A stretch of 64,000 nucleotides of DNA from Mesostigma viride. Taxonomy: Eukaryota > Streptophyta > Mesostigmatophyceae > Mesostigmatales > Mesostigmataceae. Every line of letters starts with the position of its first letter. The stretch's first letter is position 1. The position numbers were made by a program, and so were the translations under genes. The notes beneath the pieces are model-generated. The model was not told where the DNA came from. It did no database searches and was given only the letters and a program-made list of their open reading frames with translations. Below, piece after piece: positions 7,897-62,719 of this stretch. The stretch spans positions 2,594,565-2,658,564 of the forward strand of contig RPFO01000026.1 in assembly GCA_009746045.1 (NCBI GenBank), given 5' to 3'.

Positions 7897-7934
7897 AACC
7901 AGATAAGACCTCTGCCTTCCCACGACATCATCCT

Positions 7935-37879: not shown

Positions 37880-38338
37880 ACAAGCCCCCCCCCCAAGCTG
37901 ACGCGGACGCGTCAGCTTTTCCCCCACCGCCGATTCTCCGCACCCCGCACCCCCGCACCCCCCCACCCACCTAGATTAACGGACCCCCCCTTTCCTTCTA
38001 TTCCCTTTCCCTTTCCTTCTATTCGCCGCTACTCTCATCCTCCCCCAAGCCCGAGGAGTCTTCCCGTCTCTTCGAACAGCTCAGCTCCGGGCACCCCACG
38101 ACCCATTTTCGTCTCCAGTTCACTCGATTCGTCGCTACTCCTTTCCCCCCCTAGCCCTTCTTCCCCTCATTCGCGGTAACTCAGTACGATTCAGTTCAGT
38201 CTCTCTTTGTGCCCCTACGTGGCATTTTCGCCTAGTATTCCTTACTTCTCAGAGGCCGCTCCCCCCCCCCCGCGCCACTTCCCCTGCGTTTGCCACCGGA
38301 ACTACCCCGCGCCCAAGCAGAGAGTTGTTTTTTACATC
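37880..38338 (+). mobile_element. Half copy of the foldback element, target of the Harbinger insertion
   Basis: Same arm as 34817–36300 without the minisatellites: AAGCTGACGCGGACGCGTCAG … CTCAGAGGCCGCTCC … AAGCAGAGAGTTGTTTTTTA. A PIF/Harbinger element is inserted right after it. Confidence 0.7.
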
Positions 38339-38849
38339 TAAGGCACGACTCACATGAGGCTCGGTGAACTCCGTCGGTGAACTCTTTGTGAACTGGGTCG
38401 ACGGCCGGGTCGCCACCGGCGCTTCACCGGCCCTTCACTTCGAGTTCACGCACTCACATGGGTCGCAACGACGTCGTGAACTGCTCGCCAGTGAACTCGT
38501 TTGTGAACTGGCGGAGGCGCGGGAAGACAGCCCAGATTTCGCGGGAAAGGGCGCAAACGTCAAGCAAGTGCATGATGCATCCTTGCATGCTGGCTAATAA
38601 CATGCACGTCTTGTCCAGCTGTAAACCACTAACTTCTGCACCACTAATTTGATACAGTGCTGCAGAAATATGATAAAAACGCGCCGGTGACCTGTCGTGC
38701 ATGTCGCTTTTCCAGCTACCTGTCTGCGTTCGAACGCAGACAGGTAGCTTTCTTTGCAAGTTTTTCCAGGTGTTGGTGCCAGTGCTTCTCTGTCGATATT
38801 GTTTCAAAGCCGGTTTGTTTATTGGCTGGGGACGACCCCAGAGCCGCCC

Positions 38850-39150
38850 GCCGTCACATGCACAAAACATGCCATATCTCGCTGGAGGCGTTCGGTTATT
38901 TACTGGAGAAAATCGGCCCGATCAGCGAGCCGAATCTCCAGACAATGGCGGGCGCGGGCTCCGGTTGGACGTGGTAAGACCCGAGCAAATGCTCATTGGT
39001 GCATTAGAGTGGCTTTCTCATAGCTGCGACTATGGTTCCTTGGAGCGTGCATATGGCATCCCTTCAAACACGTGGTCCAAAAATGGGGAACGCCCTGGCA
39101 TTCTACGAGAACTTGAAGATGCTTTCAACAGCAAACAGCAAGCGTAGGTT
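38850..39150 (+). pseudogene. PIF/Harbinger transposase N-terminal fragment
   Basis: CHISLEAFGYLLEKIGPISE, then after a frame change near 38955 RPEQMLIGALEWLSHSCDYG and ERAYGIPSNTWSK. This matches the usual order before the DDE domain of HARBI1-like transposases: an all-helical segment, then a helix-turn-helix such as YRSIADLFGVS. It stops at 39147, and the catalytic part is absent downstream. Family recognition is by motif pattern only. Confidence 0.6.
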
Positions 39151-39251
39151 CCGGTTGGACGCCTATGGTAACCTGGACTGTGTATACGCCGTCGCTCCAA
39201 ACGCAATGCCCTGCCCACCCATACGTGCATGTGCACGTGTGGCATGTGGGC

Positions 39252-39431
39252 ATGCACACGCACACGCACACGCACACGCACACGCACACGCACACGCACA
39301 CGCACACGCACACGCACACGCACACGCACACGCACACGCACACGCACACGCACACGCACACGCACACGCACACGCACACGCACACGCACACGCACACGCA
39401 CACGCACACGCATACGTACATGCACATCTAG

Positions 39432-39516
<85 letters not shown>

Positions 39517-40193
39517 CCTCCCTCCCTCCCTCCCTCCCTCCTCCCTCCCTCCCTCCCTCCCTCCCTCCCTCCTCCCTCCCTCCCTCCCTCCCTCCCTCCT
39601 CCTCTCCCTCCCTCCTCCCTCCCTCCTCCCCTCCCTCCCTCCTCCTCCCTCCCTCCTCCCTCCTCCCTCCCTCCCTCCCTCCCTCCCTCCCTCCCTCCTC
39701 CCTCCCTCCCTCCCTCCTCCCTCCCTCCCTCCCTCCTCCCTCCCTCCCTCCCTCCCTCCCTCCCTCCCTCCCTCCCTCCTCCCTCCCTCCCTCCTCCCTC
39801 CCTCCCTCCCTCCCTCCCTCCCTCCCTCCCTCCCTCCCTCCCTCCCTCCCTCCTCCCTCCCTCCCTCCCTCCCTCCCTCCCTCCTCCCTCCCTCCCTCCC
39901 TCCCTCCCTCCTCCCTCCCTCCTCCCTCCCTCCTCCCTCCCTCCTCCCTCCCTCCCTCCCTCCCTCCTCCCTCCCTCCCTCCTCCCTCCCTCCCTCCCTC
40001 CTCCCCCTCCCTCCCTCCCTCCTCCCTCCCTCCCTCCCTCCCTCCCTCCCTCCCTCCCTCCCTCCCTCCCTCCCTCCCTCCCTCCCTCCCTCCCTCCTCC
40101 TCCCTCCCTCCCTCCTCTCCCTCCCTCCCTCCCTCCCTCCCTCCCTCCCTCTCCTCCCTCCCCCGTCCCTCCTCTCCTCCCTCCCTCCCTCCT

Positions 40194-40256
<63 letters not shown>

Positions 40257-40836
40257 ACAACACACGCACAAGTTCACTCACTCACTCACTCACTCACTCA
40301 CTCACTCACTCACTCACTCACTCACTCACTCACTCACTCACTCACTCACTCACTCACTCACTCACTCACTCACTCACTCACTCACTCACTCACTCACTCA
40401 CTCACTCACTCACTCACTCACTCACTCACTCACTCACTCACTCACTCACTCACTCACTCACTCACTCACTCACTCACTCACTCACTCACTCACTCACTCA
40501 CTCACTCACTCACTCACTCACTCACTCACTCACTCACTCACTCACTCACTCACTCACTCACTCACTCACTCACTCACTCACTCACTCACTCACTCACTCA
40601 CTCACTCACTCACTCACTCACTCACTCACTCACTCACTCACTCACTCACTCACTCACTCACTCACTCACTCACTCACTCACTCACTCACTCACTCACTCA
40701 CTCACTCACTCACTCACTCACTCACTCACTCACTCACTCACTCACTCACTCACTCACTCACTCACTCACTCACTCACTCACTCACTCACTCACTCACTCA
40801 CTCACTCACTCACTCACTCACTCACTCACTCACTCA
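39252..40836. repeat. 1.6-kb compound microsatellite
   Basis: In order: (CACACG)n 39252–39411, (CT)n 39434–39511, (CCCT)n/(CCT)n 39512–40200, (CT)n to 40231, (CA)n 40232–40258, and (CTCA)n 40273–40836, about 140 copies. Long open frames on both strands are artefacts. Confidence 0.97.
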
Positions 40837-40849
40837 CACACACACATTC

Positions 40850-42460
40850 TTTTCATGGATGGGCATCTGGTTTCCCATATCAGAGTGGGCATAAGCAAGA
40901 GTTTGTTTTAGAACTGAACTTTACTTCATTTAGCAAATGTGAGTCAACATTTCAGAATTATAATAATGGAAATTCCATTAGCTTACCGTATGATGCTACA
41001 CATGTTCATAGTGGTCAATTACGTGAGCTCCTTGAGCTAGTCACACGCACTGGGGGTACTGAGGTTGTTAAGACCTCACTTGGACATGTGCAATGTCTTG
41101 AATTGGTTGCTCATTGAGTGAGACATAATGTTGGACGTATTGTGGCTGCTTAACAATAACTTTGTGCACGCGTAATTCTTTAATCATGACTAATGTCGGG
41201 CGCGTTGCAATTATAAAGGGAGGCATGCAACTATGCAATGTGCGAACATATTAATTCCATTTAGGGTTATTGCAGTTCAAAAGGAGTGGTGCCGTCGCAA
41301 ACCGTGTAGATCCCGCTCTGAATGTTAGCCAGCCATAGTTGTAACTTACAAGGCTGCACATTTCCACCTCCATTTGTTTCCATCGTTGTGAATGACTCGA
41401 CTAACACGGATGAGTCAACAGCAGGCTCGAGATATCAACAGCATGGTCCGGGATCTCCATATTTCTGGCCTGCGCTAGTTGCTTTAGTGATAGTCTTTAC
41501 ATTGTCATCAAGTGAGTGAGACAACAAACATGACAATTGCCTGGGGCCAGCAGATAAATGTCCAAAATTATTTCAATGAGCAATAAAAGTGATTACTACA
41601 AGTAGTCAAGGAAGTGTTATCGCACAGCAAATTTGAAGCAATATCTTATGAATCACGTTCCATAGTGGCCATCATGATCGCACACACAAAAAGAGCATGC
41701 CCCTGAAAGAAAAGAGATCGGACTCAACGGACCTTACAAGTTGACCTTTCTTACCAACCAGTGTGCCTAGAACGTGAAGCGTGGGGCGGCCAGCAACGAA
41801 AGTTTGTTCATGCAGACGGACCGCCCATGCTATTGCCGGGCGCATCAGTGTGTATGTCAATGAGACAACAGCGCAGGCCAGAGATCTGGAGAATCCGGAC
41901 CAAGGTAGCTCGAGCCTGCCGTTATGTTATCCGCGTTTTCGAGTCGTGCACGATGATGGATATGAACCAGTGTGTATGTGGCCATCAACACCAATTGCCG
42001 CCATCCATATTGTCATCAGGGCGTTGTGAGTTTCACGTTTGCTTTGTCGCTCATATTTCGCTTTGCCTTCGGCTTAGGCGAGCTCGCCTTGTCATCTCCA
42101 AAGAGTATGCAATGCCGCACAAGAAGACCGACATTTATTACTGCGCCAACTATCGTCCTCAAGATTGCCAGCATCTCCAAAGATCACCAAAGCCGCAACC
42201 AGATCGAGTGCGGCGCTGTGCCCTTCGCGTGCAATGCTCTGCTCTTCTACAGCCGTGGGGCTCGGAGCATTTGGGTTAATGTCGTCGCTAATAGCAGGCT
42301 TCGGGTCACCTTTCGCGAGGGTAACCCGTTGTAGCCATTCCTGAAAAAGCTGGTCGGTGTCCCTCATGGCTGGCGACTCCCGAGCACCTGCCACCTTCCC
42401 GCGCATGTTGCACGTCTGGCATTTTCATGGGCTTGCTTCGCGCCAAACGCACGCTGTCCA
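40850..42460. other. Harbinger interior, no gene resolved
   Basis: A minus-strand frame 42092–42406 could be a second, DNA-binding ORF of the element, but no Myb motif is visible. The stretch GAGACAACAGCGCAGGCCAGA (about 41862) recurs at about 15880 after the (CCAT)n array. Confidence 0.35.
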
Positions 42461-42656: not shown

Positions 42657-43240
42657 AGGAGATACTGTAAGGGTGTTCATCCAGATCTTTATTGAAATCG
42701 CCCATCAACACACCTTCAAACTCGTGGGAAATAAGCTCAGCGACCATTTAGGGGAGGGTAAAATGAGGTTTGATCCGCTGGCTCTGCTGGGGCATAGACG
42801 ATGGATGATAATGTATCCCTTACTGCCTGCCCATGTATTAGGCTGTCGCGTCCAGCGGCCTTGCCACCGAGCCGCCGCTGTGTCCGTGGCTTCAGCCCAG
42901 TCCTGGCATGTCAGCGTGGGGTTGGATGGCAGTTTTCTCCGGTTTTAATGTCGGTCGTCAGCCAGTAGGGATGGGGGAAAGCGACCAGATCATGCGGCGC
43001 CGTGCAGTTGACTGGCTCTTACTTGATTTTTTTATAGTCCATTGTCAGTATACCGTCACAGATTATACTTATGCAGGCTCGAACCATGCACTCGCCTCGC
43101 CAGCAGCCGTTCAGTTTGGTTGCAGGCGGTCACATTCACAGGGTGCCGTATGTTACTGCTGCATCGGCAGCAAAGGTCTGTGTACGGCGGCAAATAAGTA
43201 AAATGCAGTAGATCATAGTATATATACCAAGTATTAGTAG
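42657..43240. other. 5' flank of NRPS gene
   Basis: No ORF of note and no clear promoter. The last in-frame stop before the NRPS frame is TAG at 43238. Confidence 0.4.
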
Positions 43241-46200
43241 AATCTAGTACTTCACAGTGAGTGGGGGGCACTCCTCCTCTGTAAAACGAGTTGGACAGCG
43301 GCCACGTTGGATGGGGCTCGGCTTATCCGGAGCAACAGCGGGAGCAACGTTCCCCGTTTAAACCGTGCATTTCTCCTGATCACCCGGCCTGGCGCCGGCG
43401 GCCCCTCTGTCTCCCGCCGTATCCATAACTATGCCAGCTGCCTGTTGGGGGAAGGCCTGCGGGTGACCACGGTGTTGTCAAACCCAAGCGTTGCAGAGCT
43501 GGCGGCGGCGATGACGTGTGGGAGGCAGGTGACGCGGGCGCATGCGGTGGAGCCACCATTGCAGCCCTTCCATGGAGACGTGCCCACGGGCGTGCTGCCT
43601 CCCGTGTCGTATGGGCAGGAGCAGATGCTGGCATTACACGAGCTGGACCCGGCCAGCCCTGCCTACAACATGGGACTCTGGTGGAGTGTGGTTGGGCATG
43701 TGGATGTCGACATATTGCGGCGGAGCATGCAGGTGGTGGTGGCACGACATGAAGCGCTTCGGACCCATTATGCGATGCCAGCAATGCAGGCAGCTTCCCA
43801 GGGTGCACCAGGGGCTGTCCAGGTGGTTGTGCCTCCTGATGACTTTGTCCTCCCGTTTGAGGTGGTGGATGCAGGAGATGGCGACCAAGGGCTGTGGGCC
43901 TCACTCCACAAGGAGGCCTCGACGCCCTTCAACCCCTACACAGGGCCCCTGGTGCGCTGCCTGCTGGTAAAGAGGGGTGACCGCTCCAGTGCCCTCATGG
44001 TGAACATGCACCATTCGGTGAGTGATGGCCTCTCAGGGGTGCTCCTCATCCGTGAGCTCTGCCACAGCTACTCGTCCATCATGAAAGGTGGCGAGTTGTG
44101 CTTGCCCCCATTACCAGTGCAGTACAGCGACTATGCGGTGTGGCAGCGGCGTTGGTTGGAGGAGACGGGCGAGATGGCTACCCAGCTGGCATATTGGAAG
44201 GGCCAGCTGGCAGGCGCGCCCCAACTCCTGGAACTGCCGACCGACAAGCCGAGGGCGAAGGTGCAGAGCTTTGCAGGTGGCTCTGTGCATGTGAGGTTGG
44301 ATGAGGGGTTGGTCCAGCGCCTGAGGGCTGTGGGGGCGCAGCACGGTGCAACTTTTTTGATGGTGCTGACAGCATTGTGGGCTGCTCTGCTGGGTCGTTG
44401 CAGCCGGCAGGATAAGGTGGTGGTGGGCATGCCCTGGAATGGGCGCAACAAGTCAGAGGTGCAGCACCTGATCGGGTATTTCATCAACCCGCTGGCCCTC
44501 TGTGTGGATGTGGACAGCGCACTGCCCTTCTCCCGCATGGTGCAGCATGTGCGCGATGTGGTCCTGACCGCCATGGAGCATGCGGACGCGCCCTTCCAGA
44601 AGGTGGTGGAGGCTGTTGGTTCAAACGGGGTGGTTGGCCACAACCCCATCTTCCAATCCATGGTGGTGCCCAGCGATTTTGCGGATGGAAACCCCTTGCC
44701 CTTGGGTCCCGACTGCCTGCTACACCCTCAATTTGTCCAGCAAGGCAGCTCCACCTCAAAGATGGATGTCTCCTTGGTGCTCACTGGAGACCCTGGCTCT
44801 GCTGACCAGCTGCTTCTGCTCGAGTACCGGACGGACCTGTGGTGTGAGGCCAGCATGCAGCGGCTGGGCCAGCAGCTGGTGTGCCTGGCCAGCAGCGCTG
44901 TGGCATCCCCCGAGACGCCGGTGGGCCGCCTGCCGATGATGACCGAGGCGGAGCGCAGGCGGGTGGTGGAGGAATGGAACGCTACGGACACGGCCTTTGC
45001 TTGTGCTGGCAAGTGCTTGCACGAGCTGTTTGACGAGCAGGCGTCTCGCACGCCGGACCACGTGGCGGTTGAGACGGAGACTGAGCAAGTGAGCTACTGT
45101 GAGCTGCAGCAAAGGGCGGACGCCTTGGCTTGCATTATTCAGGATACCGGCGTGGTGGTGGGTGGCAGGGTTGGCCTGTGCCTCAAGGGCTGTGTGGAGA
45201 TGGTGGTGGGTATGCTGGCCATCCTCAAGGCAGGGTGTGCGTACGTGCCGCTGGACCCCGACTACCCGGCGGAACGTGTGCAGGGTATGCTGGAGGATGC
45301 TAACGTTAGCATCCTCCTCACGAGCCCGCACCAGCGACCCCCATGGGGTGCTGATACGTCCGACCACCTGAAGCAGCTGGAGGTTCCACTGACGCCTGCC
45401 TATGCCCCTTACTTTCCTACACAAAAGCCCGTCATTCACCGCCAGGTGTTCCCCATGGACCTGGCCTATGTGCTCTTCACATCAGGCACCACAGGCCGCC
45501 CCAAGGGTGTCATGGTGGAGCACCGCAACGCGTGCAACCTGGTGGCCTGTCTGATTGACAGGTGGCAGCTGGACGGCAGCAGCCGCGTGCTGCAACTTGC
45601 CAATCCCAGCTTTGATGCGTCGGTGGCCGAGGTGTTCGGGACACTTGCTGCTGGAGGGACCCTAGTCGTGCACCCGCTTGGGTCTGACCCGCAAGACTCG
45701 CTTCGCCGCGTCACCTGTGCCTTTGTCGTTCCTTCGGTCCTCTCTATGTTCAACCCTGCGCACTTCCCGGGCCTCTCCACCCTCTGCATTGGTGGAGAGA
45801 TGGTGCCCCTGCACATGGCAACCAGCTGGGCGGCAGGCAGGCGCTGTCTCAACGGCTACGGCCCCACGGAATCCTGCGTTTTTGCCACGATGGGGCAGAT
45901 GACAGCCGAGGACCAACCAGTCTCAATAGGTGGCCCTCTTCCAAACGTGCGGGTCTATGTGCTGGATGCCTACCTTCAACCGACACCCATTGGGGTGCCA
46001 GGGGAGCTGTACATCGGCGGTGCAGGCGTGGCGAGGGGCTACGCCAACCGGCATGACCTGACCAAGGAGAGATTCCTGGACAACCCATTTGCGGCGGGCA
46101 GGCTGTATCGAACTGGAGACCTGGCCAGGTGGCTGCCTGATGGCCGGCTGCAATGCTTGGGTCGCTTGGACCGGCAGGTGAAACTGAGCGGCGTACGCAT

Positions 46201-49200
46201 CGAGTTGGGTGAGGTAGAAAGCGTGCTGGAGGCCTGCCCAGGGGTGGCCAAGGCGGTGGCCGTTCTGCAGGATGTGGGCTGTAGCACTGCTAACCCTGGC
46301 TTGTCCGGTAAACATCTGGTGGCCGATGTGTGCCCTGCTAGTGTCCAGGTGGATGCGTTGATGGAAGCAGCTCGGCGCACGCTCCCCAGCTACATGGTTC
46401 CCTCGGCGGTGGAGGCCCTGGAGAGGTTTCCGGAGACCGTCTCAGGCAAGGTGGACGCGAGGGCACTTCCCCCAGTGGATCTGAGTACCAGCGGTGGTCG
46501 CGATTATGTAGCGCCTCGGAGCATGTACGAGGCGCGTGTGCAGGCGGTGTGCCAAGACGTGCTGGGTGTGGCGTCGCTGAGCGTGCTGACAAGTTTCCAC
46601 GAGTATGGCGGCAACTCGCTGACGGCCATGGCACTCGTGCACCAGATGCGGGAGCGACTGGCTGAGTGCCCAGGCGCGGGGGAAGGCCTGCGGGTGACCA
46701 CGGTGTTGTCAAACCCAAGCGTTGCAGAGCTGGCGGCGGCGATGACGTGTGGGAGGCAGGTGACGCGGGCGCATGCGGTGGAGCCACCATTGCAGCCCTT
46801 CCATGGAGACGTGCCCACGGGCGTGCTGCCTCCCGTGTCGTATGGGCAGGAGCAGATGCTGGCATTACACGAGCTGGACCCGGCCAGCCCTGCCTACAAC
46901 ATGGGACTCTGGTGGAGTGTGGTTGGGCATGTGGATGTCGACATATTGCGGCGGAGCATGCAGGTGGTGGTGGCACGACATGAAGCGCTTCGGACCCATT
47001 ATGCGATGCCAGCAATGCAGGCAGCTTCCCAGGGTGCACCAGGGGCTGTCCAGGTGGTTGTGCCTCCTGATGACTTTGTCCTCCCGTTTGAGGTGGTGGA
47101 TGCAGGAGATGGCGACCAAGGGCTGTGGGCCTCACTCCACAAGGAGGCCTCGACGCCCTTCAACCCCTACACAGGGCCCCTGGTGCGCTGCCTGCTGGTA
47201 AAGAGGGGTGACCGCTCCAGTGCCCTCATGGTGAACATGCACCATTCGGTGAGTGATGGCCTCTCAGGGGTGCTCCTCATCCGTGAGCTCTGCCACAGCT
47301 ACTCGTCAATTATGAAAGGTGGCGAGTTGTGCTTGCCCCCATTACCTGTGCAGTACAGCGACTATGCGGTGTGGCAGCGGCGTTGGTTGGAGGAGACGGG
47401 CGAGATGGCTACCCAGCTGGCATATTGGAAGGGCCAGCTGGCAGGCGCGCCCCAACTCCTGGAACTGCCGACCGACAAGCCGAGGGCGAAGGTGCAGAGC
47501 TTTGCAGGTGGCTCTGTGCATGTGAGGTTGGATGAGGGGTTGGTCCAGCGCCTGAGGGCTGTGGGGGCGCAGCACGGTGCAACTTTTTTGATGGTGCTGA
47601 CAGCATTGTGGGCTGCTCTGCTGGGTCGTTGCAGCCGGCAGGATAAGGTGGTGGTGGGCATGCCCTGGAATGGGCGCAACAAGTCAGAGGTGCAGCACCT
47701 GATCGGGTATTTCATCAACCCGCTGGCCCTCTGTGTGGATGTGGACAGCGCACTGCCCTTCTCCCGCATGGTGCAGCATGTGCGCGATGTGGTCCTGACC
47801 GCCATGGAGCATGCGGACGCGCCCTTCCAGAAGGTGGTGGAGGCTGTTGGTTCAAACGGGGTGGTTGGCCACAACCCCATCTTCCAATCCATGGTGGTGC
47901 CCAGCGATTTTGCGGATGGAAACCCCTTGCCCTTGGGTCCCGACTGCCTGCTACACCCTCAATTTGTCCAGCAAGGCAGCTCCACCTCAAAGATGGATGT
48001 CTCCTTGGTGCTCACTGGAGACCCTGGCTCTGCTGACCAGCTGCTTCTGCTCGAGTACCGGACGGACCTGTGGTGTGAGGCCAGCATGCAGCGGCTGGGC
48101 CAGCAGCTGGTGTGCCTGGCCAGCAGCGCTGTGGCATCCCCCGAGACGCCGGTGGGCCGCCTGCCGATGATGACCGAGGCGGAGCGCAGGCGGGTGGTGG
48201 AGGAATGGAACGCTACGGACACGGCCTTTGCTTGTGCTGGCAAGTGCTTGCACGAGCTGTTTGACGAGCAGGCGTCTCGCACGCCGGACCACGTGGCGGT
48301 TGAGACGGAGACTGAGCAAGTGAGCTACTGTGAGCTGCAGCAAAGGGCGGACGCCTTGGCTTGCATTATTCAGGATACCGGCGTGGTGGTGGGTGGCAGG
48401 GTTGGCCTGTGCCTCAAGGGCTGTGTGGAGATGGTGGTGGGTATGCTGGCCATCCTCAAGGCAGGGTGTGCGTACGTGCCGCTGGACCCCGACTACCCGG
48501 CGGAACGTGTGCAGGGTATGCTGGAGGATGCTAACGTTAGCATCCTCCTCACGAGCCCGCACCAGCGACCCCCATGGGGTGCTGATACGTCCAACCACCT
48601 GAAGCAGCTGGAGGTTCCACTGACGCCTGCCTACGCCCCTTACTTTCCTACACAAAAGCCCGTCATTCACCGCCAGGTGTTCCCCATGGACCTGGCCTAT
48701 GTGCTCTTCACATCAGGCACCACAGGCCGCCCCAAGGGTGTCATGGTGGAGCACCGCAACGCGTGCAACCTGGTAGCCTGTCTGATTGACAGGTGGCAGC
48801 TGGACGGCAGCAGCCGCGTGCTGCAACTTGCCAATCCCAGCTTTGATGCGTCGGTGGCCGAGGTGTTCGGGACACTTGCTGCTGGAGGGACCCTAGTCGT
48901 GCACCCGCTTGGGTCTGACCCGCAAGACTCGCTTCGCCGCGTCACCTGTGCCTTTGTCGTTCCTTCCGTCCTCTCCATGTTCAACCCTGCGCACTTCCCG
49001 GGCCTCTCCACCCTCTGCATTGGTGGAGAGATGGTGCCCCTGCACATGGCAACCAGCTGGGCGGCGGGCAGGCGCTGTCTCAACGGCTACGGCCCCACGG
49101 AATCCTGCGTTTGCCACCATGGGGCAGATGACAGCCGAGGACCAATCAGTCTCAATAGGTGGCCCTCTTCCAAACGTGCGGGTCTACGTGCTGGATGCCT

Positions 49201-52200
49201 ACCTTCAACCGACACCCATTGGGGTGCCAGGGGAGCTGTACATCGGCGGTGCAGGCGTGGCGAGGGGCTACGCCAACCGGCATGACCTGACCAAGGAGAG
49301 ATTCCTGGACAACCCATTTGCGGCGGGCAGGCTGTATCGAACTGGAGACCTGGCCAGGTGGCTGCCTGATGGCCGGCTGCAATGCTTGGGTCGCTTGGAC
49401 CGGCAGGTGAAACTGAGCGGCGTACGCATCGAGTTGGGTGAGGTAGAGGCGTGCTGGAGGCCTGCCCAGGGGTGGCCAAGGCGGTGGCCGTTCTGCAGGA
49501 TGTGCGTGCCGCGCTGATGGACCTGTCTCCTCTGGCAAACGCCTGGTGGCCTACGTTGCCCTGCTAATGTCCAGGTGGATGCGTTGATGGAAGCAGCTCG
49601 GCGCAAGCTCCCCAGCTACATGGTTCCCTCGGCGGTGGTGGCCCTGGAGAGGTTTCCGGTGACCATCTCGGGCAAGGTGGACGCGAGGGCACTTCCCCCA
49701 GTGGATCTGAGTACCAGCGGCGGTCGCGATTATGTAGCGCCTCGGAGCGTGTACGAGGCGCGTGTGCAGGCGGTGTGCCAAGACGTGCTGGGTGTGGCGT
49801 CGCTGAGCGTGCTGGCAAGTTTCCACGAGTTGGCATCAACTCGCTGACGGCCATGGCACTCGTGCACCAGATGCGGGAGCGACTGGCTGAGTGCCCAGGC
49901 GCGGGGGAAGGCCTGCGGGTGACCACGGTGTTGTCAAACCCAAGCGTTGCAGAGCTGGCGGCGGCGATGACATGTGGGAGGCAGGTGACGCGGGCGCATG
50001 CGGTGGAGCCACCATTGCAGCCCTTCCATGGAGACGTGCCCACGGGCGTGCTGCCTGTCGTGTATGGGCAGGAGCAGATGCTGGCATTACACGAGCTGGA
50101 CCCGGCCAGCCCTGCCTACAACATGGGACTCTGGTGGAGTGTGGTTGGGCATGTGGATGTCGACATATTGCGGCGGAGCATGCAGGTGGTGGTGGCACGA
50201 CATGAAGCGCTTCGGACCCATTATGCGATGCCAGCAATGCAGGCAGCTTCCCAGGGTGCACCAGGGGCTGTCCAGGTGGTTGTGCCTCCTGATGACTTTG
50301 TCCTCCCGTTTGAGGTGGTGGATGCAGGAGATGGCGACCAAGGGCTGTGGGCCTCACTCCACAAGGAGGCCTCGACGCCCTTCAACCCCTACACAGGGCC
50401 CCTGGTGCGCTGCCTGCTGGTAAAGAGGGGTGACCGCTCCAGTGCCCTCATGGTGAACATGCACCATTCGGTGAGTGATGGCCTCTCAGGGGTGCTCCTC
50501 ATCCGTGAGCTCTGCCACAGCTACTCGTCAATTATGAAAGGTGGCGAGTTGTGCTTGCCCCCATTACCTGTGCAGTACAGCGACTATGCGGTGTGGCAGC
50601 GGCGTTGGTTGGAGGAGACGGGCGAGATGGCTACCCAGCTGGCATATTGGAAGGGCCAGCTGGCAGGCGCGCCCCAACTCCTGGAACTGCCGACCGACAA
50701 GCCGAGGGCGAAGGTGCAGAGCTTTGCAGGTGGCTCTGTGCATGTGAGGTTGGATGAGGGGTTGGTCCAGCGCCTGAGGGCTGTGGGGGCGCAGCACGGT
50801 GCAACTTTTTTGATGGTGCTGACAGCATTGTGGGCTGCTCTGCTGGGTCGTTGCAGCCGGCAGGATAAGGTGGTGGTGGGCATGCCCTGGAATGGGCGCA
50901 ACAAGTCAGAGGTGCAGCACCTGATCGGGTATTTCATCAACCCGCTGGCCCTCTGTGTGGATGTGGACAGCGCACTGCCCTTCTCCCGCATGGTGCAGCA
51001 TGTGCGCGATGTGGTCCTGACCGCCATGGAGCATGCGGACGCGCCCTTCCAGAAGGTGGTGGAGGCTGTTGGTTCAAACGGGGTGGTTGGCCACAACCCC
51101 ATCTTCCAATCCATGGTGGTGCCCAGCGATTTTGCGGATGGAAACCCCTTGCCCTTGGGTCCCGACTGCCTGCTACACCCTCAATTTGTCCAGCAAGGCA
51201 GCTCCACCTCAAAGATGGATGTCTCCTTGGTGCTCACTGGAGACCCTGGCTCTGCTGACCAGCTGCTTCTGCTCGAGTACCGGACGGACCTGTGGTGTGA
51301 GGCCAGCATGCAGCGGCTGGGCCAGCAGCTGGTGTGCCTGGCCAGCAGCGCTGTGGCATCCCCCGAGACGCCGGTGGGCCGCCTGCCGATGATGACCGAG
51401 GCGGAGCGCAGGCGGGTGGTGGAGGAATGGAACGCTACGGACACGGCCTTTGCTTGTGCTGGCAAGTGCTTGCACGAGCTGTTTGACGAGCAGGCGTCTC
51501 GCACGCCGGACCACGTGGCGGTTGAGACGGAGACTGAGCAAGTGAGCTACTGTGAGCTGCAGCAAAGGGCGGACGCCTTGGCTTGCATTATTCAGGATAC
51601 CGGCGTGGTGGTGGGTGGCAGGGTTGGCCTGTGCCTCAAGGGCTGTGTGGAGATGGTGGTGGGTATGCTGGCCATCCTCAAGGCAGGGTGTGCGTACGTG
51701 CCGCTGGACCCCGACTACCCGGCGGAACGTGTGCAGGGTATGCTGGAGGATGCTAACGTTAGCATCCTCCTCACGAGCCCGCACCAGCGACCCCCATGGG
51801 GTGCTGATACGTCCGACCACCTGAAGCAGCTGGAGGTTCCACTGACGCCTGCCTATGCCCCTTACTTTCCTACACAAAAGCCCGTCATTCACCGCCAGGT
51901 GTTCCCCATGGACCTGGCCTATGTGCTCTTCACATCAGGCACCACAGGCCGCCCCAAGGGTGTCATGGTGGAGCACCGCAACGCGTGCAACCTGGTGGCC
52001 TGTCTGATTGACAGGTGGCAGCTGGACGGCAGCAGCCGCGTGCTGCAACTTGCCAATCCCAGCTTTGATGCGTCGGTGGCCGAGGTGTTCGGGACACTTG
52101 CTGCTGGAGGGACCCTAGTCGTGCACCCGCTTGGGTCTGACCCGCAAGACTCGCTTCGCCGCGTCACCTGTGCCTTTGTCGTTCCTTCCGTCCTCTCTAT

Positions 52201-55200
52201 GTTCAACCCTGCGCACTTCCCGGGCCTCTCCACCCTCTGCATTGGTGGAGAGATGGTGCCCCTGCACATGGCAACCAGCTGGGCGGCGGCAGGCGCTGTC
52301 TCAACGGCTACGGCCCCACGGAATCCTGCGTTTTTGCCACGATGGGGCAGATGACAGCCGAGGACCAATCAGTCTCAATAGGTGGCCCTCTTCCAAACGT
52401 GCGGGTCTATGTGCTGGATGCCTACCTTCAACCGACACCCATTGGGGTGCCAGGGGAGCTGTACATCGGCGGTGCAGGCGTGGCGAGGGGCTACGCCAAC
52501 CGGCATGACCTGACCAAGGAGAGATTCCTGGACAACCCATTTGCGGCGGGCAGGCTGTATCGAACTGGAGACCTGGCCAGGTGGCTGCCTGATGGCCGGC
52601 TGCAATGCTTGGGTCGCTTGGACCGGCAGGTGAAACTGAGCGGCGTACGCATCGAGTTGGGTGAGGTAGAGAGCGTGCTGGAGGCCTGCCCAGGGGTGGC
52701 CAAGGCGGTGGCCTTCTGCAGGATGTGGGCTGTAACAGTGATGGACTCGTCTCCTCTAGCAAACGCCTGGTGGCCTACACTGTCCCTGCTAGTGTCCAGG
52801 TGGACGTGTTGATGGAAGCAGCTCGGCGCACGCTCCCCAGCTACATGGTTCCCTCAGCGGTGGTGGCCCTGGAGAGGCTCCGGACCATCTCGGGCAAGGT
52901 GGACGCGAGGGCGCTTCCCCCAGTGGATCTGAGTACCAGCGTGGTCGCGATTATGTAGCGCCTCGGAGCGTGTACGAGGCGCGTGTGCAGGCGGTGTGCC
53001 AAGACGTGCTGGGTGTGGCGTCGCTGAGCGTGCTGACAAGTTTCCACGAGTATGGCATCAACTCGCTGACGGCCATGGCGCTCGTGCACCAGATGCGGGA
53101 GCGACTGGCTGAGTGCCCAGGCGCGGGGGAAGGCCTGCGGGTGACCACGGTGTTGTCAAACCCAAGCGTTGCAGAGCTGGCGGCGGCGATGACGTTGGGA
53201 GGCAGGTGACGCGGGCGCATGCGGTGGAGCCACCATTGCAGCCCTTCCATGGAGACGTGCCCACGGGCGTGCTGCCTCCCGTGTCGTATGGGCAGGAGCA
53301 GATGCTGGTATTACATGAGCTGGACCCGGCCAGCCCTGCCTACAACATGGGACTCTGGTGGAGTGTGGTTGGGCATGTGGATGTCGACATATTACAGCGG
53401 AGCATGCAGGTGGTGGTGGCACGACATGAAGCGCTTCGGACCCATTATGCGATGCCAGCAATGCAGGCAGCTTCCCAGGGTGCACCAGGGGCTGTCCAGG
53501 TGGTTGTGCCTCCTGATGACTTTGTCCTCCCGTTTGAGGTGGTGGATGCAGGAGATGGCGACCAAGGGCTGTGGGCCTCACTCCACAAGGAGGCCTCGAC
53601 GCCCTTCAACCCCTACACAGGGCCCTGGTGCGCTGCCTGCTGGTAAAGAGGGGTGACCGCTCCAGTGCCCTCATGGTGAACATGCACCATTCGGTGAGTG
53701 ATGGCCTCTCAGGGGTGCTCCTCATCCGTGAGCTCTGCCACAGCTACTCGTCAATTATGAAAGGTGGCGAGTTGTGCTTGCCCCCATTACCTGTGCAGTA
53801 CAGCGACTATGCGGTGTGGCAGCGGCGTTGGTTGGAGGAGACGGGCGAGATGGCTACCCAGCTGGCATATTGGAAGGGCCAGCTGGCAGGCACGCCCCAA
53901 CTCCTGGAACTGCCAACCGACAAACCAAGGCCGAGGGTGCAGTCTTTTAAAGGCGACTGCCTGGAATTCACCCTGGAAAGGATGGTGGTTCAGGCTCTGA
54001 AGAAGTTCGCACAGGAATGTGGCGCGACCTTCTTCATGGTGATGCTGACCCTTTGGGCGGCTCTGCTGGGCCGTTGCAGCCGGCAGGATAAGGTGGTGGT
54101 GGGCACACCCTGGAATGGGCGCAACAAGTCAGAGGTGCAGCACCTGATCGGGTATTTCATCAACCCGCTGGCCCTCTGTGTGAATGTGGACAGCGCGCTG
54201 CCCTTCTTCCGCATGGTGCAGCATGTGCGCGATGTAGTCCTGGCCGCCATGGAGCATGCCGACGCGCCCTTTCACAAGGTGGTGGAGGCTGTGGGGGCGA
54301 CGGGCAGCGTGAGTGGCAACCCCATCTTCCAGTCCATGATCATGCCCGACCAAATGGTTGGAATGACTGAGTTGGCACTTGGGCCAGATGCCTGCGTCAT
54401 TCCGGGTCGTCGTATTAACCGCCACGGCTCCTCCAAGGTGGATGTGAGCCTTGTCCTCTGCGATGAAACACAGGCGGGCAACCTGACTCTGCTGCTCGAG
54501 TACCGGACGGACCTGTGGTGTGAGGCCAGCATGCAGCGGCTGGGCCAGCAGCTGGTGTGCCTGGCCAGCAGCGCCGTGGCATCCCCCGAGATGCCGGTGG
54601 GCCGCCTGCCGATGATGACCGAGGCGGAGCGCATGCAGTTGATGGAATCATCGCAGCTGAAGCAGTGGTTGCAAGTGCCTCCCTCTCCCCTCAGCCTGTG
54701 TGCCCTGTGGGACTGCCAGGTGGCCACCCGCCCAGCAGACATGGCGGCACGCTGCCAAGAAGCAGCCCTCTCATTTGCCCAGCTGGACAGTGCCGCGGGA
54801 TTGCTGTCTGCGGCGCTGGCTGCTAGTGGCGTGGGCGCAGAGGCACGCGTGGCAATCGTCATGGAGCGGTCGCTCCTGATGCTGGCCGCCATGCTGGGCG
54901 TGCTCAAGGCAGGCGCGTGCTACGTGTCCCTCGACCCCGCCAACCCGCCCGCCTACCTGGCCAGCCTGCTGGATGCCGCGTCCATCAAGGCGATCCTGTG
55001 GGACCGCGCTGTTTGCGGGCGGTTGCAGGGCATGGCCGGGCTGGAGCAAACCACGTGCTTTGTTGTGGACGACCTCGTGGCGGATGCCAGGACAGCATCA
55101 GGCACAGGGGGACGAAGGGGCCGAAACCAGGACTCCTTAGCAGGTCCGTTCATCCACCCTGACCAGACGGCAATCTGCCTGTTCAGCTCCGGCAGCTCCG

Positions 55201-58128
55201 GCGTGCCCAAGGGGGTCGAATTGACCCACCGCGCGCTTGTGGCTAAGCTGGAGGGCTACTGGGCGGCGTGCCCCTTTGCGCCCGGCGAGGCCTGCCTGGC
55301 GCGCACAACGGTGTCGTTTGTGGACCACACACTGGAGATCCTCGGGTCGCTCCTGCACGGTGTGCCCGTGGTGCTGGCGACCGCGCAGGAGGCGCGCGAC
55401 CCCGCGTCCCTGCTGCACGTGGCGGTGTCCGCCCACGTCACGCGACTCGTGGTTGTCCCGTCACTGCTGCAGGTGATGCTGGCAGACGCGGAGGAGGACG
55501 AGCGTGCACGCGCCACGTGGTGTGAGGGGCCCATCTCGCTCGTCATCAGCAGCGGCGAGCCACTCCCCTTGTCCCTGGCGCAGGCGTTCCTGGCGGCCGC
55601 GGGCGACCACTGTCAGCTGGTCAACCTGTACGGGTCCACGGAGACGTGCGGCGATGCCACGTGGGCGCCCGTGACGCGCGCCATGGTTGCCGCGGGGCAC
55701 GTCACGGTTGGCCGCCCACTCCTGCACGCCGTCACGCTGGTGCTCGATGACTACGGCCAGCTGGCACCGCCGGGCGTCCCGGGGGAGCTCTGCGTGGGCG
55801 GCGGCGTGGTTGCGCGCGGGTACCTCCACCAGCCGGAGCTGACCGCATCGCGCTTCACGCGCATACCCATCGCCGACCTGCTGGGGAGGGACGCTGCCGC
55901 GTCGCCGTCATGCGGTTTTCCTCAGCATCCCCCATCAGACATGTTCTCCCCAAGCCGCGATGAGGCTGCTGGCAGCAAGGATGACCGCCCCTCGCTCGTC
56001 CTGTACCGCACGGGGGACTGTGCGCGGCTGCTGCCGTGTGGCGACTTGGCGCTGATGGGTCGCCTGGACCACCAGGTCAAGGTGAGGGGCGTGCGCCTGG
56101 AGCTGGGCTTTGTGGAGCAGGCCATGGCGCGGCTGCCAGGCGTGGCCGCCGCTGGGGCGGTGCTGGTGCCCGCCACCCAGCAGGGCCTCGTGGACGCACC
56201 GGGCCATGACACACTGATGGCGGTGGTGAGCCCCCGGCGGCTGCTCCCAGAGGCACTGCTGGCGGCCCTTCGGCAGCAACTGCCGCTGTACGCCCTCCCC
56301 GCGCGCATCCTGTGCGTGGATGAGCTGCCACGCCTCATCAGCGGCAAGCTCGACCGCCGCAAGCTGCTGGCCATGGCGGCGGCAGAGATGGCGGAGATGC
56401 GGCGCGTGGGGACGGGCGGGGGCGGCCGTGAGGCGCCCGCGTCGCACGCGGCGGTTAGGACGGACCCGCTCGAGGCCAAGCTGGCCGCGCTGTGGGGGAA
56501 GGTGCTGCGCCTGCCCAGCGTGTCCGTGTTTGACGACTTCTTCAACATCGGGGGCAACTCGCTGGTGGCGGTGCAGCTGCAGAGGGAGCTGGCCAGGGAG
56601 CTGGCCAGGGACCCTGCGCTCGCGCCGCTGGCGTCCGGCAGCCAGAGCCTGTCGGTGTTCAGCCACCGCACCATCAGCAGCATGGCCGCCGAGGCCGCCG
56701 GGGCGCTGGGCAGGACGGCAGGCAGGGGTGCTAGTGGCGCCAGCGACGATGGCCGCGCCTTTACGGGTGCTGCTGCTGCCGCATCCCTCATATTCAGGCC
56801 GCGGTCCTTGTTTGCCCGCTTGCTGGGGCCAGCTTCATCATCCAGTGGTGCAGAGCCAGCCACGTGGGGTGAGGAGCACGCACAGTCGGGAGTGCTGGAG
56901 GTGGTCACGTCCAACCTGCGCTTCCTGTGGAGCTTCTCCGTCGTCATGCTCCACTTCGGCCACTGCGGGGGCCAGAATCTGCGCTGCTTCCAGAACACGC
57001 CGCTGGCCGGGCTTTGGGCGCCGCACGACAACACCTCGCTCGCCAACTTTGTGCCCAGGGCCTTCCAGGGGGGTGTCTTGGGCCTGTCCATCTTGTCAGG
57101 GATGGGAGCCGCATCGGGCGGCATGCGACCATCCCTGGGCACGCCCCTACTGGCGGTCATGCTGGCGCTGCTCATGGAGTTTGGGGTATCCCGCGCATTT
57201 GACGACCTCGTGCGGTCATCGAAGCAGGAGCGCTTCTCCACCACGGCCCACCTATGGGGCCTGTGGGCACTGGCCTTCAACCAGCTGCTGCTGTGGCTGT
57301 GTGTCGGCATATGGCGCGGCCACAACCACCGCGAGGGTCCAGGCACCAGAAAGGTGGTGTTGTGCTCCTGCTTCTGGCCGCTGGCACGGTGCAATTCCTG
57401 CTCCCCATTCTCTTTGCGTTGCTGTGGCCCCCGGCTTCAGCGGCGGGTGTTCATGGGATGTGGTTTGGTCCCTGGGGCATGCACCAGTTGGGCTGGGAGC
57501 CACTGGGGCCGCGTGTCCTCACCTCTGCGTTGCCCTTTGCGATCGGGTATGCATACAACAGCCAGATCACTCGCATGGTGCACACGGTTCGGTCGCACGT
57601 GTGGCTTCGGGTCGTACTGGCCGCCATCTTTGTGCAGCTCACGGTTCGATCCACGTTCTTCCTCGACATCCTCTCGGGGCTGGACCTGCGTTCCAGCGAG
57701 TCAGCGCGTTTTGCCACCATCGCCGACGTGATGGCCACGTGGGAGCTCGGATCATGGTGGCGGGAATGGCCGCTGAGGGTGCTGGGTTACATGGGCGCGC
57801 TAGCGGAGGATATGGGGATGGCCTTTTCGATGCTGGCCGTTATGCCAGCGCTGGATGGCATGGTCACCAGGTTTGGCAGGGCCTCCCTGCCCATATATCT
57901 TTTCCATCCCATGTTTTGAGGCTGATGGAGCCGTTCTCGTTCTGGCTGCTGCGCCAGGTGTCCTCCAACATGCCGCTCACAGTCACCTTGGAGGTCCTCC
58001 TGCCGCTCAGCTTCACGGTATGCCTCTGCCTCGCTTTCTCGGCGATGCAGCGGAGGGGACTGGGGGTCGGGAAAACTGTCCTCGGCCTGTCCATTGTGCT
58101 GCATGTCCTAAAGCGGGCCCTTGTGTAA
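43241..58128 (+). CDS. Multimodular non-ribosomal peptide synthetase with terminal membrane acyltransferase
   Basis: A giant intronless gene: carrier-domain tail, then four C–A–T modules, then an acyltransferase-3 (AT3) membrane domain. Modules 1–3 repeat with periods of 3231, 3225 and 3222 bp (starts at about 43451, 46682, 49907 and 53129) and are near-identical; module 4 differs. C domains keep HHxxxDG, A domains keep their core motifs, and T domains carry GGNSL or INSL. There is no thioesterase or reductase. About ten 1–2-bp indels break the frame, listed under Part 2. There is no in-frame ATG before about residue 69, so the true start is upstream or lost. High GC and the absence of introns fit a bacterial origin. 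If working, it would join three identical residues and one beta-alanine-like residue and release them by acyl transfer at a membrane. Confidence 0.85.
43448..46681 (+). other. NRPS module 1 (C–A–T), intact
   Basis: Begins with the end of a T domain (VLSNPSVAELAAAM). The C domain covers about 43520–44930 with MHHSVSDG at about 44009. The A domain covers about 44950–46480: LFTSGTTGRPKGV (about 45475), FDASVAEVF (about 45611), NGYGPTESC (about 45853), GELYIGGAG, YRTGDLARW, LDRQVKLSGVRIELGE and SGKVDAR. The T domain follows, with EYGGNSLTAMALV (about 46600). The specificity positions read D-A-A-F-C-G-G-V-F-K by eye. The whole module is one open frame, so this copy is the reference for judging the others. 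Confidence 0.88.
46682..49906 (+). other. NRPS module 2 (C–A–T), frameshifted
   Basis: Near-identical to module 1. Indels relative to module 1: 2 bp lost in a T-run near 49110 (just after the GYGPTES motif), 1 bp near 49446 (after IELGEVE), and 1 bp near 49832 (in the T domain before INSL). The segment 49490–49560 is truly divergent from module 1. C domain and the N-terminal part of A are intact. Confidence 0.85.
49907..53128 (+). other. NRPS module 3 (C–A–T), frameshifted
   Basis: Near-identical to modules 1 and 2. It has a 3-bp in-frame loss near 50060 (TGVLPVVYG) and frame-breaking indels near 52287 (before GYGPTES), 52714, 52730–52790 and 52940. The T domain 52970–53128 reads EYGINSLTAMALV. 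Confidence 0.85.
53129..56720 (+). other. NRPS module 4 (mosaic C, divergent A, T)
   Basis: The C domain starts as a near-copy of modules 1–3, breaks frame near 53192 and 53625, diverges from about 53890, then alternates between near-identical and divergent blocks to about 54630. The A domain (54650–56380) is a different lineage: LFSSGSSGVPKGVELTH, FVDHTLEILG, LYGSTETCGD, GELCVGGGVVARGY, YRTGDCARL, LDHQVKVRGVRLELG and SGKLDRRKL. By-eye specificity code V-D-L-V-I-S-L-G-D-K, close to the beta-alanine code. T domain FFNIGGNSLVAVQLQ near 56535. Confidence 0.85.
56880..58128 (+). other. C-terminal acyltransferase-3 membrane domain of the NRPS
   Basis: After a Ser/Ala-rich linker the chain becomes strongly hydrophobic, with several membrane spans. 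The first span has NLRFLWSFSVVMLHFGHC, matching the R-X10-H pattern of AT3 family proteins. Later parts include GMHQLGWEPLGPRVLTSALPF and RASLPIYLFHPMF, followed by a last span. Frame changes lie near 57350 and 57915, the latter next to a TTTT run. AT3 proteins O- or N-acylate sugars and other small molecules at membranes. Fusion behind a T domain suggests that the tethered peptide is its acyl donor. Stop at 58126–58128. Confidence 0.75.
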
Positions 58129-59977: not shown

Positions 59978-61650
59978 GAAGAGTGGGTGCTGCCCAACCC
60001 TAAGCATCCTGACTATAAGCCACCTGTCACTCCTGTCTGGGAAATTCCAGAAGGTGCCAAAAAGTTGAGACTCAAGTTTGTGCTAAAACACAAGGCATAG
60101 CCAGTAGGCTCACCTATATATCATGCTAGGCCATGTGTGACAGAATTAAAAGGCATGTCAAAACTGTCCAAGGGTGAACTCTACACTCCTGGGCTGCAGC
60201 AAACATCCCTCAGGATACTGCTCTCTGTCTTCCTCCACCATCTCGATGCTGGCCAAGATTGAATTGAATTGAATTGAATTGTAACATAACTCCGTTGGGA
60301 GTATATGTAGCACATAGCCCAGAGAAGGGGCATATGGCCTATCATACATTCTAAGCTACTTCCTGCAAGGGTGGGAATGTAAACAACACTTGCTCTAGGT
60401 GCACTAGGGCACCTGCACCACCCAGAGTTTCAGGCAACACCCAGCGAAGGGGAGCCTGTCATAGGTGGGGAAGATCATCATGGCTATACAAGAGCTAGGA
60501 CATGGCTTCTCTACAGAGAGCATCTCTCTGCATGGCATAGCATGGCAAAATTCTTAATGCAACATCCATGGGGGTCCCGTTATAGGCAGGGCTTGGCTAA
60601 ATTCTGTAGACAACATCCATGGGGGCCATTATGGGCGCACATGCGCGTGGGCCACATGCTAGGCTAAGCCTGACTAATCTACACTACTGGTATGAATTCC
60701 CTAGTCTGGGGTGGCAGGAGGGGGCTGCCCGGCAGGGCTTGTGGTCAACGTGGATGACCGCCCCCCTCCAGTATACCGGCTTCCCCCCTGCGCTGTGCCG
60801 GAGCTGAAGGTAGGTCGGCCATAGCTCGCCAAGATTATGCCTGCAAAGCTACTGATATCAAAAGGGCTTTCCTTAGAGGGGACCCTGATAAAGCGCAAGA
60901 TGTGTGGAAGGGTCAGGTTTATGTGGTTCCCACCCCTGCTGCATGGGCACATGATATTGATGAGCCATATCTACTCCTAAATCTGGGGGTGGAAGGTTTG
61001 CAAAGTGCTCCCACTATTTTCCGAAAATCAGCAGAAGAGGTGTTCAAGAAACTTAATGCCACCTATGATGATCTGGACCCTTGTCTCTTTGCTGTGCCCA
61101 CACCCTCTGGGTTGCTCCTGTTTGTGTGGCATGTTGATGACCAACTGATTTGTGGACCAAGAGCTGAAGTTGACAAGTTCATTCAGCAGGTTCAGCAGTC
61201 ATATAAGATTGGAAAGCAGACAGAGCTGGGGCCAGAACCCCTACAGTTCTGTGGCATAATGCTAGCACTGGAAGAGCAACAGGAACAGTGGGTGTGTACT
61301 CTATCCCCGCCTGCCCAGTACTTAGAAGAATGCCTACTAGAGTTTCTTGATATTCCGTGCATTCCTGCTCACATGTGTGCTACTGTCAAAGGAAAATTAG
61401 GGTGGCTGAGTGCTATCTGTGCACCTCATCTGGCAGTGGTCAGCAGGATTGATGACACAGTATTACAAACCATGAAACCTAAGGATCTCCAGAAGGTACT
61501 AAAGGCTGGACCTTCCCTTGTCATTCATCCACTCAACCTCATGGAAGATATTCACATTAACTGTCTGATGGACAGCTCCATGGAGATCGGTAGAGTAATA
61601 ACAAAAATGGATGCCACGGACTATAGAGGGTCTGCAGAGCGCGTCGATTG
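59978..61650 (+). pseudogene. Ty1/copia RT relic, family A, interrupted by a half-LINE
   Basis: The RT N-terminus (WVLPNPKHPDYKPPVTPVW, IPEGAKKLRLKFVLKHKA) is followed by stops. After the insertion at 60261–60827 the frame continues through DIKRAFLRGD, DEPYLLLNLGVEG, PTPSGLLLFVWHVDDQLICG (active site) and LQFCGIM, to DIHINCLMDSS. It fuses near 61650 to a different copia family. Same family as 1–1487. Confidence 0.85.
60261..60827 (-). mobile_element. 567-bp half-LINE insertion with 9-bp target duplication
   Basis: Flanked by GCCAAGATT (60252–60260, 60828–60836). Reading minus: a truncated ORF1 end (ELWPTYLQLRHSAG, KPVYWRG), a UTR, the hairpin CTCCCAACGGAG and an (AATTC)n tail. The paralogue at about 165–200 shows the uninterrupted copia sequence. 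Confidence 0.88.
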
Positions 61651-61654
61651 CTTG

Positions 61655-62719
61655 TAGGATAACCCTCATGCGTGCGTTGGGTGAGATCGCAGAGTTTGAG
61701 GTATCTCCCTACGACCCATCGTTGTTCGTGGCGCGGATGCCGTCTGGTCCTATGTTTGTACAACTGCATGGGGATGACTTGCGTGTCATTGCTTCGCGGT
61801 CAGCCTTGCATGCATTCTATGCTGACATTGGGCGGCAGTTCCCAGTGGGTGAGTTGCAGCTATTGGGGCCGCAGACGCCGCGTGTGTTTTGCGGGGTGGT
61901 GCAAACCCTGCGGGTGGTGTCGGGTAAGCACCGGATGCACTTGGGTATTCCTGACAAGTACAGGGAGGAGCTCATGCGCGATGTGGAGGAGTTGTGCGCC
62001 AAGGGTTTGTGGAGCCGATTGCGTGGCAAGCTCGGCTGCATGCATGGATGGCAGCGGTGTGTGGGTCTGACCTGCTGGTGTTGAGCAGGACTGTGGATGA
62101 GGTGTTGGCTCTCGTTTCCCCGCGTCTGTTATCAAGCAGTATGTTGCTGAGAGCCATGCAGGGTGTCGTACTTTCTGGTTTGTCTCTTTCTCAGCCGATT
62201 GTGTTGCATTGCTTTGCTGACACGTCTGGCGAGGGCAGGGAGCTCACCAAGACGAGAGCTCGCATGGGTGGTTTGTTTGTGCTCTCCAACCCCAAGGGCA
62301 ATGGTTCGCTCTGTGGGTGGTACTCAAGGTTGTGTCGCAGGGTGGCAGTTGGGTCGGATACCAATGAGTGTCGCGGTGTGTGTGAGTGCATCAAGGCGTC
62401 CATGTATCTAGAGCAACTTCTGCGCTGGATGGGCAAGTGGCTGGATGCTCGTTTGGTACTGACCACGACTGTGCATACCGACAGTCAGCCGCTTGTGAGT
62501 TTCATTCTCAACAGCCTGTCCAGGACGCGCGATCTGGATTTCCTGCTACTCAAGGAGCTGTCATACGCAGTGAGCGTGCTTCATCTACCTGGGAAGCTCA
62601 ACCGGGCTGATGCGCTGACCAAGCTGTTCGCTGGAGCGCGAGACCAGTATCGCCTCTTGCGGATGGTCAGGGGGGGCTCTCTCGGGGATCTGCAAGGACT
62701 GCTGGATGGTTTGATATAG
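61655..62719 (+). pseudogene. Ty1/copia RT C-terminus and RNase H, family B
   Basis: A second copia lineage joined to family A. The RT part has EFEVSPYDPSLFVARMPSG and VQLHGDDLRVIAS. A frame change near 62020 leads into the RNase H domain, with its acidic residues in CFADTSGEG, TNECRGVCECIKAS, VHTDSQPLVSFI and RADALTKLF, to a stop at 62717–62719. The RNase H half is nearly intact. The abrupt A/B junction may mark template switching or a later deletion. Confidence 0.83.

Follow-up and report, generated by a model that had tools for sequence, protein, structure and literature searches.

Mesostigma viride is a unicellular green alga, an early-branching streptophyte and a cousin of land plants. 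We have analysed a window of 64,000 nucleotides (bases 2594565–2658564 of scaffold C887) in its 439.9-Mb assembly of 2243 contigs, in which a repeated nonribosomal peptide synthetase (NRPS) is followed by a membrane domain. It turned out that this copy is one locus of a large nuclear NRPS family of M. viride. The family has the plan (C-A-T)n-C-A-T-TmAT, where C, A and T are the condensation, adenylation and carrier domains, the last A domain has a putative beta-alanine-type code, and TmAT is a membrane domain with the predicted fold of transmembrane acyltransferases; in some members a loading domain and a carrier come first. We are highly confident that the NRPS and the TmAT domain are fused in this family. 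The window alone cannot show the fusion, and we accept it because sister genes carry the modules and the membrane domain in one open frame.

Sister loci and the terminal membrane domain

A search of the genome for condensation domains gave 77 matches, 30 of which lie on symbiont-like contigs. We read ten sister loci. In all ten, one to four C-A-T repeats, varying in number between copies, precede a last module, C-A4-T4, and in nine the membrane domain comes last; the fetched stretch of the tenth, C224, stops at T4, and the genome search puts the membrane domain downstream. From the first C domain through the end of the membrane domain, a single stop-free frame extends over 6106 codons in C1846, 4355 in C1622 and 3278 in C2, so that modules are joined in one frame in these sisters and not in the window copy. 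In C887d, C1507 and C887b, the frame of T4 is also that of the membrane domain. In the more distant copies C1801, C1602 and C1802 (52, 45 and 49% identity in alignment A3), the genome searches place the membrane domain and a C domain in one open-frame length. Using 44 of the 77 C matches and 23 membrane-domain places condensed from 39 TmAT matches, we found a C domain no more than 12 kb upstream on the same strand at 17 places. At an eighteenth place, near 1208230 of C1106, inspection by eye gave a match to the database protein P0125, which carries PF00668; the remaining five had no C match in a search that scored the best candidates only. Scaffold C887 holds NRPS units near 2.64, 2.81, 3.33 and 4.22 Mb, that is, four copies over 1.6 Mb. 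The second is 99.2%, the third 98.6% and the fourth about 90–97% identical to the window copy.

A whole-protein search with the TmAT region returned eight proteins, all from Mesostigma (7991 scored candidates of about 895–2849 residues). With alignment A1, no free-standing relatives were found at E ≤ 0.01 among 7996 scored candidates of about 228–725 residues. Three pattern-matching stretches in prokaryote genomes and eight in viral contigs were not confirmed. Within these limits of length and candidate number, the C-A-T-TmAT fusion is seen only in Mesostigma.

In intact sisters, the hydrophobic domain after T4 has about 412 residues. Its predicted structure shows the core fold of the TmAT superfamily, by comparison with the folds that VIA-align lists and with the superposition given as ranges only. 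An AlphaFold2 model built from three close copies had a pLDDT of 30 and was discarded. A PDB sequence search with the domain gave nothing relevant, none of three E. coli AT3 proteins was matched when profiles were compared, and the viral fold library gave nothing at E ≤ 0.001. PF01757 (AT3) was detected in one of the 11 copies (L033, 21.8 bits), and none exceeded the curated Pfam cut-off of 31 bits. The R-x10-H motif of AT3 helix 1 is present in eight copies; of the other three, one carries Q instead of R, another is missing both residues and the third is truncated. The RXXR motif of the cytoplasmic face of AT3 helix 3 was seen by eye in a single copy (L035) in alignment A3. The same alignment, from which L031 was excluded for one in-frame stop, contains near-invariant polar and cysteine residues: H21, C25, N29, R31 and C32. 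An earlier sequence-only reading of this DNA had ended the synthetase in an AT3-like membrane acyltransferase. The acyltransferase end is upheld by the predicted fold and the intact sister genes, whereas AT3 is not called by Pfam over its cut-off; going by the predicted fold, the wider TmAT superfamily suits the domain better.

Judged by codon changes between sister copies, the membrane domain is shown to be under purifying selection. The ratio of nonsynonymous to synonymous substitution rates (dN/dS, Nei–Gojobori) was 0.17–0.30 for this domain (15 pairs from six copies), 0.23–0.38 for A4 (20 of 21 pairs from seven copies, the window and C887b being identical) and 0.29–0.46 for the C domain in nine of ten pairs from five copies; the tenth pair, with three changes, gave 0.67. 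These sets contain none of C131, C887c, C623 and C224, the broken TmAT domain of the window was excluded, and the C set is without C887d and C1507. C887d is a mosaic, with A4 nearest to C1507 (dS 0.039) and the membrane domain nearest to C887b (dS 0.058), and therefore recombination seems to shuffle parts between loci.

Substrate codes and starter domains

The A domain of module 1 in the window has the code DAAFCGGVFK. Module 2 agrees with it in the first eight positions, up to a frame break, and module 3 agrees by eye across a frame break, which bears out the repeated-residue logic proposed earlier. Of the ten positions in the code of module 1, seven are as in DAWFIGGTFK, which is listed next to Val codes, and six as in the Met code DVFYLGGVFK (PMC12283262, available in part). 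By this resemblance, module 1 likely activates an aliphatic residue. Other sister modules read DMSRVGSGSK, and therefore the products probably differ between loci. In compiling the codes, we excluded A-domain pieces shorter than 900 bp; two broken A domains of modules give DAAFRS, followed by gaps, the A4 codes of C887c, C131 and C623 are without the last position for frame reasons, and the A4 of C224 and module 3 of the window were not included.

The code of A4 in the window is VDLVISLGDK. Of seven close copies in which the whole code can be read, six have it, and C1846 carries M in place of V; three further copies agree over nine positions, and the database protein P0124 has the code as well. 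The distant P0125 differs (DDDGISLGDK, poorly aligned). The code fits VDxVISxxDK, a beta-alanine consensus that was not found in print. Resting on this consensus and on one printed predicted code, the last module would carry a beta-alanine-type code. The printed code, predicted for beta-Ala, is V D A T V S I A D K (PMC3777966). A4 is without Asp235, which A domains for alpha-amino acids keep (PMC12283262, available in part), and has V-D at positions 235/236 together with D331 and K517, as expected of a beta-alanine-activating domain.

In C2, C1622 and P0124, an AMP-binding domain that resembles acyl ligases comes first, followed by a carrier; the ligase presumably resembles plant oxalyl-CoA synthetase. 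No match to this loading domain was found in the 43 kb upstream of the window NRPS, and the 5' edge is common to C887b, C887c, C887d and C224. Therefore, a C domain seems to be the first domain in the subfamily of the window, which would have to receive its starter in trans or from a free acyl donor. A lipopeptide, suggested before, would be made plausible by the loader in some sister genes, but no loader was found for the window copy.

The window copy and its genomic setting

The NRPS units of the window start at 43447, 46678, 49903 and 53124, which gives periods of 3231, 3225 and 3221; the first two are as read before, and the third had been put at 3222. Units 1–3, compared pairwise in 200-bp bins, differ by 0–3 substitutions in 15 of 17 bins and by 4–5 in one. 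One bin near the end of the A domain has 19–32; this hypervariable patch of about 200 bp lies at 46247–46446 (+) in module 1. Thus, modules 1–3 are indeed near-identical. The fourth module had been called distinct, and it does diverge, but its first 800 bp or so (half a C domain) are near-identical to units 1–3, which had been overlooked. The likeness of the modules, together with sister loci aligning at high identity, supports recent duplication or gene conversion, as was first supposed from the sequence.

All features of the gene lie on the + strand. Module 1 (43447–46677; C 43565–44950, A 45017–46480, T 46481–46738) is a single open frame; the 5' edge of the repeat falls inside the tail of a T domain (43447–43510), and the database model P0004 begins at a Met at 43511. 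In module 2 (46678–49902; C 46796–48181, A from 48248, T pieces 49707–49829 and 49820–49963), the frame is broken late in A and in T. Module 3 (49903–53123; C 50021–51403, A 51470–52928, T 52943–53185) is broken late in A and before T. Module 4 (53124–56780) comprises a C domain at 53242–54626 with a break near 53620, A4 at 54693–56360, and T4 with the start of a linker at 56361–56780. The TmAT-fold (AT3-like) domain (56892–58125, stop codon 58126–58128) has breaks near 57339 and 57908, and its pieces 56892–57353, 57326–57910 and 57883–58125 are in three different frames. The flank at 42760–43446 (+) is common to sister loci, with alignments reaching back to 42760 (C887c), 42930 (C887d and C224) and 43050 (C887b, where the fetched stretch begins); therefore the NRPS start belongs to the duplicated unit.

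The earlier domain calls hold. In three long frames of the window, Pfam places C and A far over the cut-off, and T over it in two and just below it in the third. HHSVSDG in the C domains, the serine-bearing T motif and the A3 and A10 motifs are present in all four modules, so that HHxxxDG, the A core motifs and the T serine follow in the order of an NRPS. The best match of known structure is the linear gramicidin synthase LgrA. With Pfam, neither the frames of the window nor five family members from the database showed a thioesterase, reductase or condensation-type release domain; the first two had been reported missing already.

The earlier reading had missed that the frame is not open throughout: short indels interrupt it in modules 2 and 3, once more in the C domain that opens module 4, and twice in the membrane domain. 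Introns were rejected as the cause because sister copies read straight through the break sites. The gene models P0001, P0002 and P0003 (Mv06526, Mv05063 and Mv18322) splice away core motifs of the A domain although the genome is open there, and these models look wrong. The breaks come from residual assembly errors or decay, and we lean to error. Decay, with true frameshifts here and functional genes at other loci, is a serious possibility that we rate somewhat below even. Both breaks of the membrane domain recur in C131, and a family with so many copies can afford decay; C131 may, however, be a second copy of the window locus cut by a contig end. Against decay, all 556 codons of A4 are the same in the window and C887b, module 1 is intact, and so are three less similar sisters. 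Between the window and C887b there are 16 indels, of which two span three bases and six shorten runs of one base in the window; some of the 16 may sit on the C887b side. In C887c, single-base indels crowd into one patch of a sequence that is otherwise near-identical (the first 40 indels were listed, of 97 gap positions). This patch resembles raw long-read error, and therefore the assembly seems to hold unpolished stretches. The assembly, presumably that of strain NIES-296, was made by PacBio sequencing, gap filling and short-read polishing (PMC6947507, available in part), a procedure that is weak in near-identical repeats, and we count this for assembly error. The repeat could in principle also be an assembly artefact of a single module, since near-identical units of about 3.2 kb over some 10 kb are hard for reads with an N50 of 11.2 kb (PMC6947507). 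We consider such an artefact very improbable: the modules differ at fixed positions and by the patch, and loci with more divergent modules (C1846, C1507 and C887d) share the plan. At 3326000–3342000 of C887, the near-identical sister L016–L017 shows a dense patch of single-base indels with 3760 N downstream, a sign of unpolished gap filling.

The top protein matches of the window NRPS are M. viride gene models, which supports the algal source. We reject bacterial contamination because a LINE-type reverse transcriptase and a Copia-type match below cut-off lie in the window, the scaffold is 5.27 Mb long, and the guanine-plus-cytosine (GC) content over the modules is 0.62–0.67, against 0.34–0.37 at symbiont-like NRPS loci. 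These AT-rich loci (L001–L008, on C2011 and C870) account for the 30 symbiont-like C matches; the copies on C2011 lie at 0–25 kb and 1.43–1.47 Mb. They are only about 31% (C) and 33–38% (A) identical to the window. Judged by size, GC content and PMC9098888 (available in part), C2011 and C870 are probably a Ca. Megaira symbiont, and some published NRPS clusters of M. viride may stem from such contigs. The LINE-type element (7716–12353, +) has a 1545-residue open reading frame with PF00078 and a weak, below-cut-off endonuclease match; the Copia-type fragment (PF07727) lies at 60902–61657 (+). A 579-residue open reading frame at 32166–33905 (−) carries a family 10 glycosyltransferase (fucosyltransferase) domain (PF00852, E 9.6e-29). 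Upstream of the NRPS, a tandem array with an 8-bp period (40100–40900) lies inside a region of strong negative GC skew (38000–42000). Rfam and tRNA scans of the window gave no matches.

Peptide release and known systems

As the best explanation, we incline slightly to an NRPS family in which the TmAT domain replaces the thioesterase and would join release to translocation. The means of transfer, a carrier-bound chain passed on by TmAT, we hold to be evenly balanced. Each near-identical module would add the same aliphatic-type residue, the last would add beta-alanine or a related beta-amino acid, and gain and loss of modules would set the peptide length. Coenzyme A (CoA) has chemically the same pantetheine arm as the last T domain, whose arm could then enter the TmAT pore from the cytosolic side, where a slim, unbranched beta-alanine beside the thioester would fit a pore that normally takes acetyl. 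From the TmAT domain, the peptidyl or acyl-peptidyl group would go to an acceptor, a hydroxyl or an amine, that probably lies across an internal membrane; we suggest scale glycans only as a guess. More tentatively, since we doubt it rather than expect it, the family may be a class of megasynthase, so far of Mesostigma only, whose own carrier-fed TmAT domain hands an acyl-peptide to a far-side lipid or a Golgi-made scale glycan, so that synthesis, release and export would be one step.

It is unlikely, though worth weighing, that the fused domain uses acetyl- or acyl-CoA as AT3 proteins do and decorates the peptide or a nearby glycan, release being left to hydrolysis or to an enzyme in trans. 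Acyl-CoA is the accepted AT3 donor (PMC9558356, available in part), and R-x10-H is kept in most copies. However, in the loci read, the domain is last, directly after the beta-alanine-type module, in the position of a release domain, and RXXR, tied in AT3 to the 3'-phosphate of CoA (PMC9833829, available in part), was found in one copy. That the domain is a catalytically dead membrane anchor, with another protein releasing the product, is quite improbable: it has no known enzyme activity and the superposition does not reach active-site residues, but its low dN/dS and near-invariant residues exceed what an anchor needs. A TmAT domain that receives a carrier-bound chain remains our preferred explanation.

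D-alanylation by DltA, DltC and DltB works alike: after adenylation, the aminoacyl group is bound to the pantetheine arm of a carrier protein, from which a membrane acyltransferase then takes it over. However, these are separate proteins, DltB has the MBOAT fold, and a single D-alanine is transferred rather than a peptide. Epsilon-poly-L-lysine synthetase is also an NRPS with membrane-spanning segments; it has one A-T pair, with C-like domains between the helices, and is not known to contain a TmAT domain. Its A domain also came up in the search that gave LgrA. Bacterial multimodular NRPS such as LgrA have the same C-A-T modules with standard motifs, whereas the Mesostigma gene is nuclear, its modules are near-identical and vary in number between sisters, and it ends in the TmAT-fold domain with no terminal C domain, thioesterase or reductase found. 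With the TmAT superfamily (AT3 proteins OafB and OatA; HGSNAT), the Mesostigma domain shares the predicted multi-span fold and, in eight of 11 copies, R-x10-H; it differs in lying below the Pfam cut-off, in its fusion to a carrier domain and in a predicted donor that is a carrier-bound chain and not acyl-CoA. Fusions of AT3 to SGNH, NRF and serine racemase are known, and the available parts of the same sources do not mention a carrier fusion (PMC12423673, PMC9833829, PMC11357348).

Multimodular NRPS of M. viride NIES-296 without a thioesterase are already in print, in an antiSMASH listing where six of eight NRPS hits come from this strain (PMC10794256, available in part). Very probably these are in part the same gene family; the retrieved passages mention neither a membrane acyltransferase end nor a beta-alanine-type last module. 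Literature searches found no paper in which an AT3 or TmAT domain is attached to an NRPS. Of the possibly undescribed algal pathway proposed earlier, the fused membrane domain was thus not found in print, but the synthetases without a thioesterase are already described.

Release and export of assembly-line peptides usually belong to separate domains and transporters, and a fused transmembrane acyltransferase would join both. The family comprises about two dozen membrane-domain loci in a nuclear genome, and its intact sister genes can be expressed and assayed. Their near-identical modules of varying number are a natural test bed for the duplication and homogenisation of NRPS modules.
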